This document shows, in pieces, positions 50,216-57,268 of a DNA stretch of 64,000 nt. The stretch spans positions 34,433 to 98,432 of IMG/VR virus record IMGVR_UViG_3300042863_000214. The stretch is one strand, 5' to 3'. The notes under the pieces are model-generated. The model was given only the letters and a program-made list of their open reading frames with translations, had not been told where the DNA came from and ran no database searches. The position numbers and the translations under genes are program-made. The DNA is from a virus. Numbering within the stretch: position 1 is the stretch's first letter; every line of letters begins with the position of its first letter.

Positions 50216-51937
50216 TTATGCTACCGGTGGCATTGCTGCCGGTGCCGCACCAGGAGCCGCAGGCATGCCACCTGTAATGTCTGCTCCGCCAACTTCTGGG
50301 GGAGCAGTGTCATCAGATAAGTCACCTAAGTCACTTTCAATACCTGCTGAACTAATGCCTGCGCCACGTAGTTCGCCTGAGCTGTCAGTAGGAATAGCAC
50401 TGCCTTTTCCATTCTCTTCAGCCCACATGCGCTCATTTTCCGCCATCTCTTCATCGCTCATACCTAAGAAGCGTTTCATAGCAAAACGCTTGCTCATGAA
50501 TGGGATCTGACTCATAGTTTGGAACTGTGGTACACGTTGTCCATCTAGCTCTGCTTGACGATAGGTAGCAAAGTTCTGTGGTGCTTGAAACTGTACTTCA
50601 AACAAACTTGAGTCAATGTTTACACCACGTTCATTCAAATATAATTTAAATTCTTGGTCAAAAACATCCTGCATTAGACTTTGTAAACGCTGGCAATAGT
50701 TGTTAAAACGCAGTTCTTGAATGTATGCAGTACCAACTCGTCCGTCGTTATATTGTGATTGGCTGTCATCTGCGCCTGTTGGCAAGTAGCTTGACGGAAT
50801 ACGTAGGCCACGGAATAACTTGTTAGTAAAGTACTTTAAGTCATCAATTTCACCTAAGTTAGTACCGCCCGGAAGTGTTTCTACTTTACTTCCACGACCT
50901 TCTGCTGTCTGCGGAAAGAAGTAGTCTTCGTTGATACTTAACGGATTGTAGGCACTATCAACAACGTTGTTGCCTCCACCTGTTGAACTTGGAATACGTC
51001 TTTGATGTATTTCGTTCTTTACACGCTCAACAAAGCTCATAGCCAAATGACTTGGCATATTTCCCACGTCAATATAAAAGATTCTACGTTCTGGAGCACG
51101 TTGTATACGATAGATAATGATAGCATCTTCAAGCAGTTCTTTCTGTTTGTAAACTTTAAAAATGCTTTCTAACAAGCTATTACCAAATGGATAATTGTTG
51201 TCAAGACCTTCTGATAAACTTAAATGTATAACATGCTTTGCATCAACAGCAACTTCGTCCTGTCCGCTACTAAATCGTGAACTTTGACTACTTGGATATG
51301 CGCCAGGCTGGCCGCGAGCGGCTGCTCCGCCAGCAACAAATGATGTTCCGCGGTTGTTGGTATTTTGAGAATTAGGATTGATCTGTGTAACAACTAAGTG
51401 CTGGAAGTTAGGATTTAGGTCACGGATAACATACTGTTCTGGTGCTTTACCGTCACTTTCATTCACAATGATCTTGGTAATCTTGCCAGTGTCAATGTAC
51501 ATCCATTTCTTATTTTCAGGATCGCGAACAAAGAACGCATCGCCGTATTTGAACACGTTACGCACGATACGGAAGATTCTAGTTTCAAATTTTTGTAGCT
51601 TACACCACTGCTGTAGGTACTCTCGAAGGATAGCAATTTCACTATTTGTAGCTTTATTTCTATAGAATAAACTAAATGGTGTGTTGTTTTCTTTGTTCTT
51701 TTGACTGCAGAATTCTGCTAGAATGTCTAGGGCTGCATTGACTTCGTTGTCCATGTCCATTGTATCGTACTGCAAATAGCGATCAATACGATTAGGAGCA
51801 CCTGTGTAGACGTCTGGTAAGAAACTAGAGTAGTTTGCTTGGGCTGGGCCCGGACGAGATGAACTGTTTCCTATTGGGCTATAGTTTCCGGAATCAGTGT
51901 TAACTGACGCAGGTGTAAAATACTTTTTCCATGACAT
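50216..51937 (-). CDS. gp20: Portal vertex protein, T4 gp20 homolog
   Basis: A 573-residue portal protein (T4 gp20 is 524). The segment RIDRYLQYDTMDMDNEVNAA followed by LDILAEF (about 51-77) is a hallmark of gp20. Later come KVYKQKELLEDAIIIYRIQR with APERRIFYIDVGNMP (about 265-300), and VETLPGGTNLGEIDDLKYF with FRGLRIPSSYL (about 350-385). The C-terminal ~60 residues are Ala/Pro/Gly-rich and absent from T4. It forms the dodecameric DNA channel at the capsid vertex. It lies five bases after the tape-measure-like gene. Confidence 0.95.
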   Translation of the reverse strand: MSWKKYFTPASVNTDSGNYSPIGNSSSRPGPAQANYSSFLPDVYTGAPNRIDRYLQYDTMDMDNEVNAALDILAEFCSQKNKENNTPFSLFYRNKATNSEIAILREYLQQWCKLQKFETRIFRIVRNVFKYGDAFFVRDPENKKWMYIDTGKITKIIVNESDGKAPEQYVIRDLNPNFQHLVVTQINPNSQNTNNRGTSFVAGGAAARGQPGAYPSSQSSRFSSGQDEVAVDAKHVIHLSLSEGLDNNYPFGNSLLESIFKVYKQKELLEDAIIIYRIQRAPERRIFYIDVGNMPSHLAMSFVERVKNEIHQRRIPSSTGGGNNVVDSAYNPLSINEDYFFPQTAEGRGSKVETLPGGTNLGEIDDLKYFTNKLFRGLRIPSSYLPTGADDSQSQYNDGRVGTAYIQELRFNNYCQRLQSLMQDVFDQEFKLYLNERGVNIDSSLFEVQFQAPQNFATYRQAELDGQRVPQFQTMSQIPFMSKRFAMKRFLGMSDEEMAENERMWAEENGKGSAIPTDSSGELRGAGISSAGIESDLGDLSDDTAPPEVGGADITGGMPAAPGAAPAAMPPVA

Positions 51938-51942
51938 GTTTG

Positions 51943-54900
51943 TTATCTCGCGTATATGTTACCAGCAGTGCTTTTAGTAGCTTTGGTTGTAGATTTATGG
52001 CCTTCTTCACTGACTGCTATTAGTTGGCCCATCTGTTTATTTAACGTATTCAGCGCCGATACCACGTCAGAGAGAGTAGATTCTTTAGTTGCTGCTTTAG
52101 CATCGGGCTTTTTTTCAGCCGTTTTAGCAGCTTCTGCTTTTTTCTCTTCAGCTTGTCTTTTGAATTTTGCGTCTTCTCTGGCGGCATCTGCATCTGCAGG
52201 CTTAGCTGGTATACTATTTTTAGCAGTATCAATCTTTTTCATAATTGGCATACCGTTAGGGCCAATGTCCATTCCACCTGCCATCATGTCTGCTGTGCTC
52301 ATTACTTTGCGTTTTGGTGCTTCTGATACAACCGAAGTGTTTAATTTTTCCGGAACAGCTGAGTCCCAGGCGGCTTTAGCGGCTGCAGTAATTGCATCAG
52401 TTTTCTTATCTTCAGCAGTAACATCTTTAGCTGTTTTCTGTTTGAGTTCTAATTCACGTTTAGCACTGTAGCCTTCTAAATTCTGCATAATATCAAGCAT
52501 TTCTGTTTTTTCGCCAACTCGACGTTCAAACAGTTTTTTGTTTGCTTCTTGATTTGCAAGTTCTGCCGTTTCTTCTTCTGTAGCTTGTCTATCTCCAATG
52601 TCAGCTTTCATTTTAGAAATTCGATCAGCAATTATTTTTGCAGTTTCAGTATCTTCTTTAATACCAGATTCCATAGCTTCGGCGTGGGCAACACGATTAC
52701 CTTCGCTATAACCTTTGTAGTCGTCAAGGATCTTTTGTTGACTTTCTGTAAACTGAGATTGGAATTCTTCTTGTTTAGCAGCCATATCTTTAACTGGAAG
52801 TGATTCAGCTATGTAAGATTTAATTTGTTCAGCGTTGGTTTCAACAATTTTTACTTTGGCTTCTTCTTGCTGAGTCAAAACATCATAACCCATTTTTTGT
52901 AAATTTTGTCTAGTTGATTCAGCACGTTCAGCAGCGGCAATTGATTCTCGAGCCTTGTCAGCGCCGTTAACTGTTTGATTCATCTGAGCAGTAAGTTCGT
53001 CGTATCGTTTTTTATCTTCCGATGATAGATCTTTTAAGCTCTTGCCTTCTGCTTCATATCTTTCTTCTAACGCATCTCTTGCTGTATATGCAGCTTTATT
53101 AGCTGCGTTTGCTGCTGCTTCTTCTGCTTTAAGAGATTCTAATTTTTCGTTAGCTTGTTTGTCATTTAACGACATCATTTCATCAAAGATTTTACGTTGA
53201 TCATCGTTTAGTGTCATTTTCCCCATTGACGTAACTGATTGCATTGCTGATGGTGCAGCCATAGTCTTAGATGTTGTGCCGGGTAATGAACTTGCTATAT
53301 CTGTTGCCATTTTTTTACTAGATGAAGATATTGTAGTTGAATATGACTCAACTACATTAGCAGAATCTTTAGCAGTTTTTTCCATTTTTGCCACAGTATC
53401 AGCTGAATAACTTTGTATCTTGTCGTTCATATCGACATAATAATCTTCAATCTTTGCACCTTTTGGTATCATAGAGCTGATCATGTCTTCACTCATACCT
53501 TTTACTGAAGTGCCAATTACTCCTTTAGCTAAATCAGCTTCTTTAAATGCATCAGCGTTAGTTTTCTTAGCAATATCTAGTTTAGATTTACTATCATCTT
53601 TGTACATATCGGCCAGTGTACTATTACTAGTTTTAGTAATTGCCAATTGCTCACTAACCATTTTAGTAGTTTCTTCAATGGCTGCTGCTTTCTTAGTAGT
53701 TTCAAAACTGATTCCAGCATCAATTTGTTTCTGTAACGGCTCCATCATAGCTTTATACTTTTCAGCTATTCCTTTACCTTCGTCTCCAGTTCGCATTTCT
53801 TTGGCGACTGACCCGCCACCTAGTTTACTTCCGTCACCTATTTGAGCTTTTAACTTTTCTCTAAGAGCATTTCGTTCAGCTTGCATCTGTTCTTTAATAG
53901 AGGCTAATTCTTTTTCAGCATCTTTACTACTGTCATTTTGTACTCGTTTAGTAGTAGTTTCACCGCCTCCACTAACAGAACTAATACTAGTGCTAATTGA
54001 TTTAGACATGCTAGACAAATCTAACTTAGGAGCATCCATCTTGGGCATTGCACCAGCTGCTGCTCCCATAATCTTAGCAGTGTAACTTTCAAGTTGTGTT
54101 TTATTAAAAATTGCTTCGGGGCCAGCTTCACCTGCAAGAATAAGTTCAGGTTTTTCAATTATGCCACCAACTGCTTTAGCTTTAACTCCAGTAACTTCAA
54201 CACCGCCAACAACAGAAACAAAACCTGGACTAGCAGACCTAAACAATCCGCCTAGTGCATCAATCCCTGCGCCAACTCCTTCTAACACAGGTTTTTCACT
54301 ACCAGGATTGACTAATTTTCCTGTTGATTTTTCTAACTCTGCTTTCTTTGCATCTTTATATCCAGGCTGTTCAGTAGCAGGCAACTCTTTCTTAATCTGA
54401 CTAACAAGGTCGGCCATGCCTGCACCTTTGTTTGCCATTGCACCTTTAACTACATCTTCTTTAGACATAGATTTCTCATTAGCAATCTTTTCTAAAACTT
54501 TAAGAGCAGCATCAGATTGTTTTTGGTTGCCGTTAAGTAATGCATTAAAATCTTTTACATCTTTAGAGGCTGCATCAGTTTTGCCAACACCTGTGTTAGG
54601 CCCTGATTTATCACCTGCTTCTTCTGAAGCTATTCTACTAAGTCTAGCTTTATCGTAACCTGCTCCAATAGGTTTTCCAAGTTCTTCATCAACTACTGTT
54701 GGTGAATCTAAATTCAAAGCCTTATAAAGTTTAGCTATTGCTGGGCCAACATCTTTTTGTGCTAATGGCTGTATGAGTTTATCGTTTATTGTTTTGGTTA
54801 AATCTCTTCCTCGACTTTCAACATCAACTGCAAATTTAGTAATTGCTTGGCCGCCTGTTGCATTTGGATCGTCTTTGCTGCCGGCCTGTTGTTCTTTTTT

Positions 54901-56154
54901 GACTTGATCGTCAAGTTTTTTCATTGACTCTTCAACATTGTTTATATTGCCGCCTGCATCTGCAAGAGCATTTCTAAACTTAGCACCCTGTGCATAACTT
55001 TCTTGAGTTTCTTTAATGCCTGCTTGTGCAGCCATTGTTCTGTACTGACTAGTATTTTGAAAAGCAGCTTGCTCAGCTGCGGCTTGTTTTGTCAGCATTG
55101 CCGCACGTTCTCTGTCACCACTGCGAGCAGCTTCACCTGCTTCACTCATCAATTTTTTAGCATCAGCACTTAATAGACCGTATGCTGCTTCCATACCTTC
55201 TGACGGGCGGCCCATTGAAGCCATGTCTTCTGCAAGTTTCTGAAACTGTGGTCCCATCAGTTTACCGTTAGCACTGATTGCATCAAACGCTTCTTTTGCA
55301 CCTACACCACCTTTAGCAATAGCTTCATCAATAGCGGCCATACGTTGGCCGTCAGTAGCCTTGCGACGTAATTCGTCAAGTTGTTCTTGTTTACTCTGTC
55401 CTGTTATCTTAGCAACAGCATCCATTTCAGTAGCTAGGCTCGCTGCTGCTTTAAGAGATCTATCTTGACCGTCTTTGTCTTTTAGATCTTTAAGTTTTGA
55501 TCCCGATATACTAACAGCTAACACATCGTTAAGCTCTTTGGTAGTGTAGCCCATGCCTCGAAGTTGTTCGCCTAGACCACTAGTAAAAAACGAATCAGCC
55601 ATTTTAGTAAACTTTTTAGCACCTTCAGCACTAGTTGCTCCGAATCCCAGCATTGAAGAATTATTCTTCTGCATTACTTCACTCATTTCAGCAATGCTCA
55701 TCCTAGCAGCACTTGCTTGATTTTTCATCTCTATGACATCGTTGTTAAACGATAGACCAGTGTCAGATAACTTTCTCCAAGTGTCAATATTTTTATCTAG
55801 GTTTTGTCCTAAGGATGCAAGTGCTTTAGAACCTTTTTCAAGAACTGTGCCAAAAGCTGATCCGGTAGCACCAAGGCCACCAAACCCTGCTGCCAATGCA
55901 TCAGTAGCATCACTAACTCGAGCTCCGCCTTCTGCAAGTTTTGACGCAACTGTTGCAGCCGCAGTGCCTAATCCTTTAGCGGCATCTCCAGCAGCACCCA
56001 GTTCTTTACCAAATCGACCTGATCCGATATCACTGCCGCCTCCTGTTCCACCCCCGGAAGTACCACCTCCACCTCCACCAGACATGCCTCCAAGATAGCC
56101 AAGTTTACTTGCTTCTTTAAGTGCTGCTACCATTTCATCTTTGGTTATTGACAT
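51943..56154 (-). CDS. Tape-measure-like tail protein, about 1403 aa
   Basis: I start at the ATG at 56154 (MSITKDEMVAALKEASKLG), which has AGGA eight bases upstream; the longer frame to 56229 would overlap the divergent gene and its promoter. The N-terminus is followed by a Gly/Ser-rich stretch, then long helical, alanine-rich sequence with few aromatic residues. Around residue 675 the segment VGGIIEKPELILAGEAGPEA matches the GGI..P.L.L.GE.GPEA motif common in phage tape-measure proteins. Long coiled-coil-like blocks run to the end. Tape-measure proteins set tail length and enter the host on ejection. The neighbouring gp26-type gene with a frameshift signal supports this. The T4 counterpart would be gp29, although sequence identity cannot be judged here. 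Confidence 0.8.
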   Translation of the reverse strand: MSITKDEMVAALKEASKLGYLGGMSGGGGGGTSGGGTGGGSDIGSGRFGKELGAAGDAAKGLGTAAATVASKLAEGGARVSDATDALAAGFGGLGATGSAFGTVLEKGSKALASLGQNLDKNIDTWRKLSDTGLSFNNDVIEMKNQASAARMSIAEMSEVMQKNNSSMLGFGATSAEGAKKFTKMADSFFTSGLGEQLRGMGYTTKELNDVLAVSISGSKLKDLKDKDGQDRSLKAAASLATEMDAVAKITGQSKQEQLDELRRKATDGQRMAAIDEAIAKGGVGAKEAFDAISANGKLMGPQFQKLAEDMASMGRPSEGMEAAYGLLSADAKKLMSEAGEAARSGDRERAAMLTKQAAAEQAAFQNTSQYRTMAAQAGIKETQESYAQGAKFRNALADAGGNINNVEESMKKLDDQVKKEQQAGSKDDPNATGGQAITKFAVDVESRGRDLTKTINDKLIQPLAQKDVGPAIAKLYKALNLDSPTVVDEELGKPIGAGYDKARLSRIASEEAGDKSGPNTGVGKTDAASKDVKDFNALLNGNQKQSDAALKVLEKIANEKSMSKEDVVKGAMANKGAGMADLVSQIKKELPATEQPGYKDAKKAELEKSTGKLVNPGSEKPVLEGVGAGIDALGGLFRSASPGFVSVVGGVEVTGVKAKAVGGIIEKPELILAGEAGPEAIFNKTQLESYTAKIMGAAAGAMPKMDAPKLDLSSMSKSISTSISSVSGGGETTTKRVQNDSSKDAEKELASIKEQMQAERNALREKLKAQIGDGSKLGGGSVAKEMRTGDEGKGIAEKYKAMMEPLQKQIDAGISFETTKKAAAIEETTKMVSEQLAITKTSNSTLADMYKDDSKSKLDIAKKTNADAFKEADLAKGVIGTSVKGMSEDMISSMIPKGAKIEDYYVDMNDKIQSYSADTVAKMEKTAKDSANVVESYSTTISSSSKKMATDIASSLPGTTSKTMAAPSAMQSVTSMGKMTLNDDQRKIFDEMMSLNDKQANEKLESLKAEEAAANAANKAAYTARDALEERYEAEGKSLKDLSSEDKKRYDELTAQMNQTVNGADKARESIAAAERAESTRQNLQKMGYDVLTQQEEAKVKIVETNAEQIKSYIAESLPVKDMAAKQEEFQSQFTESQQKILDDYKGYSEGNRVAHAEAMESGIKEDTETAKIIADRISKMKADIGDRQATEEETAELANQEANKKLFERRVGEKTEMLDIMQNLEGYSAKRELELKQKTAKDVTAEDKKTDAITAAAKAAWDSAVPEKLNTSVVSEAPKRKVMSTADMMAGGMDIGPNGMPIMKKIDTAKNSIPAKPADADAAREDAKFKRQAEEKKAEAAKTAEKKPDAKAATKESTLSDVVSALNTLNKQMGQLIAVSEEGHKSTTKATKSTAGNIYAR

Positions 56155-56179: not shown

Positions 56180-56187
56180 TATAAATA
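56180..56187 (+). promoter_or_regulatory. T4-late-type promoter octamer TATAAATA (exact)
   Basis: An exact TATAAATA on the plus strand, 30 bases before the ATG at 56217. The leader would carry the CGGGAG ribosome-binding site at 56206-56211. Confidence 0.75.
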
Positions 56188-56216
56188 AGGATACATTATA
56201 TTTATCGGGAGTAAAA

Positions 56217-57047
56217 ATGAACCCAACAAACCCTCTACAGAAGTACTATCGCCAGCCTAAAATCTACATCTCTTTGCCCAGCAAAGGACTATTCTACGAA
56301 GAAGGTGCGTTTCACGGTGACTATAACAACGTACCAATTTTTGGTATGAACGGCATGGACGAAATTATGTACAAGACTCCAGATGCCTTGTTTACCGGCG
56401 AAGCAACAGTTAAAGTTATTGAGAGTTGCTGCCCTTTTATTAAAGATGCTAGTAAGATGCCTACACTAGATGTAGACAGCATTGTAACTGCTATCAGAAT
56501 TGCTACATTTGGTGAACTACTTGGAATTAGACACACCTGCACTAACTGCGGAACTGAAAATGAATTCGATATTGATCTGCGTACATTCTTAGAATACTAT
56601 AGCGGATTAACTTTTGATAATAAAATTCAAGTAGGAGAGCTAACAGTTACCCTACGCCCATTAAGTTACAAAGAACTTACTGAAATTAATATAGAAAATT
56701 TTAAATTACAAAAGATGTTAGCACAAGTTGGCACTATGTCAGATGAGCAAGATCAACAGGTACAAGTTGATCTAGTTTACAAAAATTTAGCAGACGTACA
56801 AACTCAATTGTTTATTAACAGTATTGACAGTGTTCAAGTACCAGACGGCATTGTTAACGAAAAAGAATTTATTGTTGAGTGGGTTAAGAATAGCGATCGT
56901 GCCCTATATGCAGCTATTAAGAAAAAATTAGAAGAAAACAAAGAAAAATGGACTATGCCCAAGTCTCATATTAAGTGCGCTACATGTGAAACTGAAGATT
57001 CAGTAACTGTTAATTTGGACCAATCAAATTTTTTCGTAACCGCCTAG
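56217..57047 (+). CDS. gp26: Baseplate hub / tail chaperone protein, T4 gp26-like
   Basis: I start at the ATG at 56217 (MNPTNPLQKYYRQPK), with GGGAG five bases upstream, giving 276 residues instead of the longer open frame. The protein fits the T4 baseplate family (gp26 type): YISLPSKGLFYEEG near the start, then MDEIMYKTPDALFTGEA (47-63). Two CxxC pairs (C108/C111 and C254/C257) probably bind zinc. T4 gp26 is needed for hub assembly; its absence from reported mature baseplate models fits a chaperone role. A slippery T TTT TTC lies at codons 272-273, and the -1 frame stays open for 77 more codons (see separate entry). It is divergent from the tape-measure-like gene. Confidence 0.8.
   Translation: MNPTNPLQKYYRQPKIYISLPSKGLFYEEGAFHGDYNNVPIFGMNGMDEIMYKTPDALFTGEATVKVIESCCPFIKDASKMPTLDVDSIVTAIRIATFGELLGIRHTCTNCGTENEFDIDLRTFLEYYSGLTFDNKIQVGELTVTLRPLSYKELTEINIENFKLQKMLAQVGTMSDEQDQQVQVDLVYKNLADVQTQLFINSIDSVQVPDGIVNEKEFIVEWVKNSDRALYAAIKKKLEENKEKWTMPKSHIKCATCETEDSVTVNLDQSNFFVTA
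57029..57035 (+). promoter_or_regulatory. Putative -1 programmed ribosomal frameshift site
   Basis: The heptamer T TTT TTC is in the exact X XXY YYZ phase of the gp26-like frame, three codons before its TAG. Slippage by -1 leads to CGT AAC CGC and an open frame to a TAA at 57266-57268. I did not find a clearly strong downstream stem, so efficiency is unknown. Confidence 0.75.
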
Positions 57048-57268
57048 GCTATGTCGAGCACTCTGACCTTGAGGACTTTTTAAAGACATTTGATCGGCAA
57101 GCGGCAGAGGTTAAAGAAGAAATATTTAAAATAAGTTGGTACATGCGTGGCGGAGTGACCAGTCAAGACTTATTCCATGTATATTCCTATGAAGATAGGA
57201 ATATTATGAGTTCTCTAATCAAAGAAAATATTGACGCTACTAAGAAAAGCGGTATGCCGTTACTTTAA
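57035..57268 (+). CDS. C-terminal extension reached by -1 frameshift (gp26/gp26-51-like fusion)
   Basis: 77 codons in the -1 frame run from RNRLGYVEHSDLEDFL to KKSGMPLL. Their composition (DRQAAEVKEEIFKISWYMRG, then VTSQDLFHVYSYEDRNI) looks like a real helical domain. In this frame a TAA lies just upstream of the slippery site. No ATG, GTG or TTG occurs before the methionine in WYMRGG, so independent initiation cannot make the first ~36 residues. The predicted fusion is 350 residues (273 plus 77). This mirrors lambda G/GT and other tail chaperone pairs encoded beside the tape measure. T4 instead has separate genes 26 and 51. The stop overlaps by nine bases the 3' end of the convergent gene at 57260. 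Confidence 0.72.
   Translation, partial: RNRLGYVEHSDLEDFLKTFDRQAAEVKEEIFKISWYMRGGVTSQDLFHVYSYEDRNIMSSLIKENIDATKKSGMPLL

Follow-up and report, generated by a model that had tools for sequence, protein, structure and literature searches.

One gene in the window, by which we mean the whole 64,000-nucleotide stretch analysed here, taken from a 98-kb viral record, most probably encodes the tail assembly chaperone (TAC) of a T4-related jumbo-type myovirus, made as a short TAC-N and a frameshifted TAC-NC in the style of lambda G/GT (probability about 0.9). A programmed -1 frameshift at the heptamer T TTT TTC near the 3′ end of this gene is strongly supported by the sequence data. Direct support for the reading comes from the site itself with its phase and deep conservation, from selection acting on the extension, from the protein family and gene neighbourhood, and from late-promoter cores. 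We infer that slippage occurs at this site and, as to its rate, that it would involve a minority of ribosomes. The majority would terminate at 57045 and yield TAC-N of 276 aa, while the remainder, whose P and A sites hold Phe-tRNAs on TTT TTC, would move back one base, re-pair on TTT TTT and translate 77 more codons to give TAC-NC of 350 aa. Both forms would coat the tape-measure protein encoded by the divergent neighbouring gene, and the few long copies would use their helical C-terminal part to bring in tail-tube subunits, in the manner of lambda gpG/gpGT.

Slip site, reading frames and conservation

The zero frame of the gene ends AAT TTT TTC GTA ACC GCC TAG, with the stop codon at 57045–57047 and the heptamer three codons upstream in the right phase for a -1 slip, exactly as the original prediction had it. 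From 57014 onward the -1 frame meets no stop until the one that ends at 57268; it adds 77 codons downstream of the slip and runs 73 codons past the zero-frame stop. Its earliest ATG, GTG or TTG is Met37 (57143), in agreement with the earlier claim that no start codon could make its first part, and the frames give the same product sizes of 276 and 350 residues. Of the 44 window ORFs that begin with ATG and have 100 codons or more, no other combines an in-phase X XXY YYZ within its last 20 codons with a long -1 extension, which argues that the arrangement did not arise by chance. The octamer TTTTTTCG as such is not enriched (2 found in the window versus 2.5 expected) and thus occurs at chance frequency; the evidence for the site lies in its phase, position and conservation. 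A second in-phase X XXY YYZ one codon upstream, A AAT TTT T (57026–57032), is not kept in the 49 related viral contigs. Coordinates of the features are collected in Table 1.

Table 1. Features around the putative chaperone gene (window coordinates)
Feature	Position	Strand	Basis
TAC-N, gp26-like putative tail assembly chaperone, 276-aa zero-frame product	56217..57047	+	Profile match, fold model
Slippery heptamer T TTT TTC, tandem Phe codons	57029..57035	+	In-phase reading and conservation
TAC-C extension, -1 frame, 77 codons and stop	57035..57268	+	Readable only via a slip
CCGCC, 5′ arm of a possible long-range stimulatory stem, 4 nt past the heptamer	57040..57044	+	Minimum-energy fold
GGCGG, 3′ arm of the possible stem, ~105 nt beyond the 5′ arm	57149..57153	+	Minimum-energy fold
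Block of 17 codons without nucleotide change	57122..57172	+	7 relatives; 0/10,000 column shuffles
Tape-measure-like protein, ~1403 aa, GEAGPEAI motif	51943..56154	-	Motif, size, position
T4 gp20-like portal protein, downstream of the tape measure gene	50216..51937	-	Pfam and PHROG profile match
TATAAATA, T4-type late promoter core, chaperone gene	56180..56187	+	
GATAAATA, divergent late-promoter-like core, tape measure gene	56199..56206	-	

Conservation of both heptamer and extension in homologs had been proposed as a check, and both are indeed kept in viral contigs, jumbo phages and cyanophages. In each of the 49 related viral contigs, whose identity ranges from 100 down to 44%, TTTTTTC stands in phase with 9 to 15 nt left to the stop, and the -1 extension is present in all of them, shortened by the contig end in two. 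At 23–30% identity, ten cultured jumbo phages were compared (Atu_ph07, Paride, PHA46, 121Q, RaK2, SCTP-2, CM1, Vibrio 2.275, Phosso and CBB): nine have TTTTTTC and the tenth has TTTTTTT, and each carries a -1 extension that begins with FFR or similar. Three of four cyanophage records likewise have TTTTTTC, the fourth, C48C1, having a longer T run. Another 79 cyanophage loci, together with four from jumbo phages, have the heptamer with zero exceptions; the sole exception among the cyanophage loci read to the stop is one longer T run. The cyanophage ORF annotated as gp51 is the -1 frame behind TTTTTTC, and in ACG-2014b this frame is unannotated. Moreover, across 30 non-redundant divergent genes the two Phe codons, TTT and TTC, form the only codon-invariant adjacent pair, whereas conserved residues in the same comparison are on average written with their commonest codon in only 64% of cases.

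The -1 extension, alternative readings and candidate RNA elements

Relative to six close relatives, the extension has dN/dS of 0.01–0.17, and its other two frames contain 3 to 15 stops. It is conserved from the first codon after the slip (an invariant Arg in 30 genes), and by these sequence comparisons it is under purifying selection. The AlphaFold model of the extension comprises three helices (pLDDT 79), and the extension profile of the window clade matches its counterparts in the jumbo phages grown in culture (hhalign 99%). No annotated record examined marks the joined frameshift product; in the jumbo phage records the extension is either a separate hypothetical gene or omitted. One such case is phrog_18291 (‘hypothetical protein’; 121Q gene 595, L054:3828-4037), which matches the -1 frame extension of the chaperone and is probably not a separate gene.

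Three other explanations of the two frames were considered. RNA polymerase might slip on the T6 run and add one U, placing the extension in frame in some mRNAs; the run itself and its longer versions in CM1 (T7) and C48C1 (T8) would allow this, but nearly all loci have exactly T6 followed by C, in X XXY YYZ phase, and the C conserved as the seventh base agrees with Phe-tRNA pairing anew on TTT. Polymerase slippage normally requires longer runs and no particular phase, which we count against a transcriptional origin, and we consider it improbable. Marginally less probable still is a small gene of its own in the -1 frame, which is how most records annotate it, with translation starting by re-initiation or coupling beyond the stop. 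Cyanophage records do give the frame as a separate gp51, and an ATG overlaps or just follows the stop in Atu_ph07, Phosso and 121Q, where a separately started C-terminal product is possible. The extension in the window, however, has no ATG, GTG or TTG before codon 37, yet is conserved from codon 1, and the fixed heptamer would have no reason under such a scheme. Finally, the arrangement could be the remnant of a frame-breaking mutation, with a decaying extension, or an assembly error. We found no point in favour of this reading, which is refuted by conservation and carries almost no weight: the same arrangement is present in dozens of independent contigs and isolates, and purifying selection acts on the extension.

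Programmed slippage at TTTTTTC, the preferred reading, might be assisted by RNA elements, and the candidates differ between lineages. A strong stem ~6 nt past the slip is found in Atu_ph07, Phosso, SCTP-2 and the loci L036, L044 and L048; as a general stimulator this stem was rejected, being weak in most cyanophages. In the window, a simple hairpin directly after the slip site is absent (z +0.46). The minimum-energy fold instead pairs CCGCC with GGCGG, and does so in 7/7 close relatives. The pairing energy is not clearly better than that of codon shuffles (p about 0.04–0.4), and a stimulatory effect of this stem on the frameshift is for that reason offered as a suggestion. The 3′ arm of the stem lies within the 17-codon invariant block, which is perhaps an RNA element; in the same seven relatives about 70% of TAC-N codons differ and only 30% are invariant.

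Protein family, neighbouring genes and late-promoter cores

The zero-frame protein matches PF12322, T4_baseplate, the family of T4 gp26/gp51 (E 7.6e-17, 62.2 bits, against a curated cut-off of 24.5 bits), as well as phrog_150 (baseplate hub), consistent with the gp26-like label it had been given. Its predicted structure (pLDDT 88.5) resembles models of viral proteins that carry the names T4-like baseplate hub or gp26. A fold search of the PDB with TAC-N and the extension matched no solved structure, solved tail chaperones included, and a sequence search of the PDB gave no match. The protein had no relative in bacterial and archaeal genomes, and no near DNA relatives were found among phage records. 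Family, position and analogy with lambda point to a chaperone role, which we infer against the ‘baseplate’ or ‘hub’ that Pfam and PHROGs use as names for the family and that count against it. Two CxxC pairs in TAC-N, at residues 108–111 and 254–257, suggest zinc binding.

The predicted tape-measure-like neighbour was found, divergent from the chaperone gene and separated from it by 62 bp. It is assigned by motif, size and position only, the motif GEAGPEAI being a familiar one in tape measure proteins; the gene had no significant Pfam or PHROG match. The promoter cores TATAAATA and GATAAATA in the intergenic region are 11 bp apart and are kept in relatives down to 44% protein identity. TATAAATA is rare in the window (two occurrences versus nine expected), and a late sigma factor (phrog_12791) is among the proteins that the window encodes. 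Together, the conserved cores, the rarity of TATAAATA and the sigma factor suggest that chaperone and tape measure are probably produced together, late. So close a bidirectional late promoter (56180–56206) is unusual.

Relation to T4 gp26 and gp51 and to known frameshifting chaperones

T4 gp26 and gp51 each match PF12322 end to end and are therefore paralogues. The original prediction is refined on this point, T4 gp51 being more than an extension: a full gp26 paralogue plus a C-terminal part. T4 gp26 (208 aa) ends in EFFELL, with the stop soon after FF, whose codons are TTC TTT; judged by these codons, the slippery run has been lost. T4 gp51 (249 aa) carries its extra C-terminal part in frame. 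This part aligns with the cyanophage -1 extension (hhalign 93%; both match phrog_634), and on this evidence the two are homologous. The 77-aa extension in the window, by contrast, gives hhalign below 1% against T4 gp51 and has no significant PHROG match, phrog_634 included, so that its description as gp51-like is right by position and architecture rather than by direct sequence comparison. Compared over the full length of PF12322, T4 gp26 resembles the short form and gp51 the long one, the difference being that T4 has two separate, divergent genes and no slippery site at the corresponding place. By sequence, T4 gp26 and gp51 are best described as the short and long forms divided between two genes, and the most economical history would start from a single frameshifting gene that was duplicated and divided later, on the T4 branch. 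A broader proposal is tentative, and we hold it to be rather unlikely as a whole: that the long-range CCGCC/GGCGG stem tunes the slip and that the -1 frameshift is ancestral to the T4-plus-jumbo assemblage, T4 genes 26 and 51 being a later duplication in which the extension would have disappeared from one copy and been joined in frame to the other.

Vladimirov, Gautam and Davidson reportedly identified the T4-like TAC genes in 2022 (Virology). Several T4-like groups are reported there to retain the frameshift and T4 to have separate genes 26 and 51, and the family concerned is reportedly that of T4 gp26/gp51, the same as that of the window gene. A 2025 paper credits these authors with the poly-T slippery sites of TAC-N genes in T4-like phages and with the TAC-N/TAC-NC scheme (PMC12846349); the window gene follows the same idea, with its poly-T slippery site in the TAC-N gene. 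The link that had been proposed between gp26/gp51 and the tail-chaperone frameshift class is thus right, although a 2022 report had made it for T4-like phages, and what is added here is modest: the possible stem, the 17-codon block and the reach into jumbo phages. With the last of these, the gp26/gp51 chaperone frameshift spans a broad set of T4-related jumbo phages, those of RaK2/121Q/PA5oct type included. Atkins et al. (2016) described G-T frameshifting as widely conserved in long-tailed phages ‘except T4’ (PMC5009743), and our comparison supports the view of this long-cited exception as a special case, with two genes derived from a single frameshifting one. The results are of practical use for better annotation and, since 121Q, RaK2 and Paride are culturable, provide a ready test case.

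With lambda gpG/gpGT, and with the wider class described by Xu, Hendrix & Duda (2004), the window gene has in common a short and a long product, the -1 slip near the 3′ end and a position adjoining the tape measure gene. It differs in being divergent from that gene, whereas the lambda gene is upstream of it on the same strand. The lambda heptamer, GGGAAAG, is also another one, and the likeness noted here is one of arrangement. The gp26 and ‘gp51’ of the cyanophages (Kyanoviridae) likewise have TTTTTTC nine bases before the stop and the C-terminal part in the -1 frame; their extension, of ~65 aa, is recognisably gp51 (phrog_634), while that of the window, of 77 aa, has diverged beyond direct detection. 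The TAC of Pseudomonas phage Adele and the Vandenendeviridae, a different phage family, has a similar arrangement, with a conserved poly-T -1 site (GTTTTT) and a start-less extension by the tape measure gene (PMC12846349).

Two further relatives depart from the common pattern. That of Bacillus phage SP-15 (L064:3063-3125) comes to its end near GAA TTT TTT CAC, and here it is the +1 frame that holds an open TAC-C-like extension, which suggests a +1 slip in place of the -1 slip. Serratia phage phiMAM1 (Ackermannviridae; L065:3095-3104) has no canonical heptamer, yet has a TAC-C-like -1 frame behind GTT TTC, a site that resembles the GTTTTT site described in PMC12846349.
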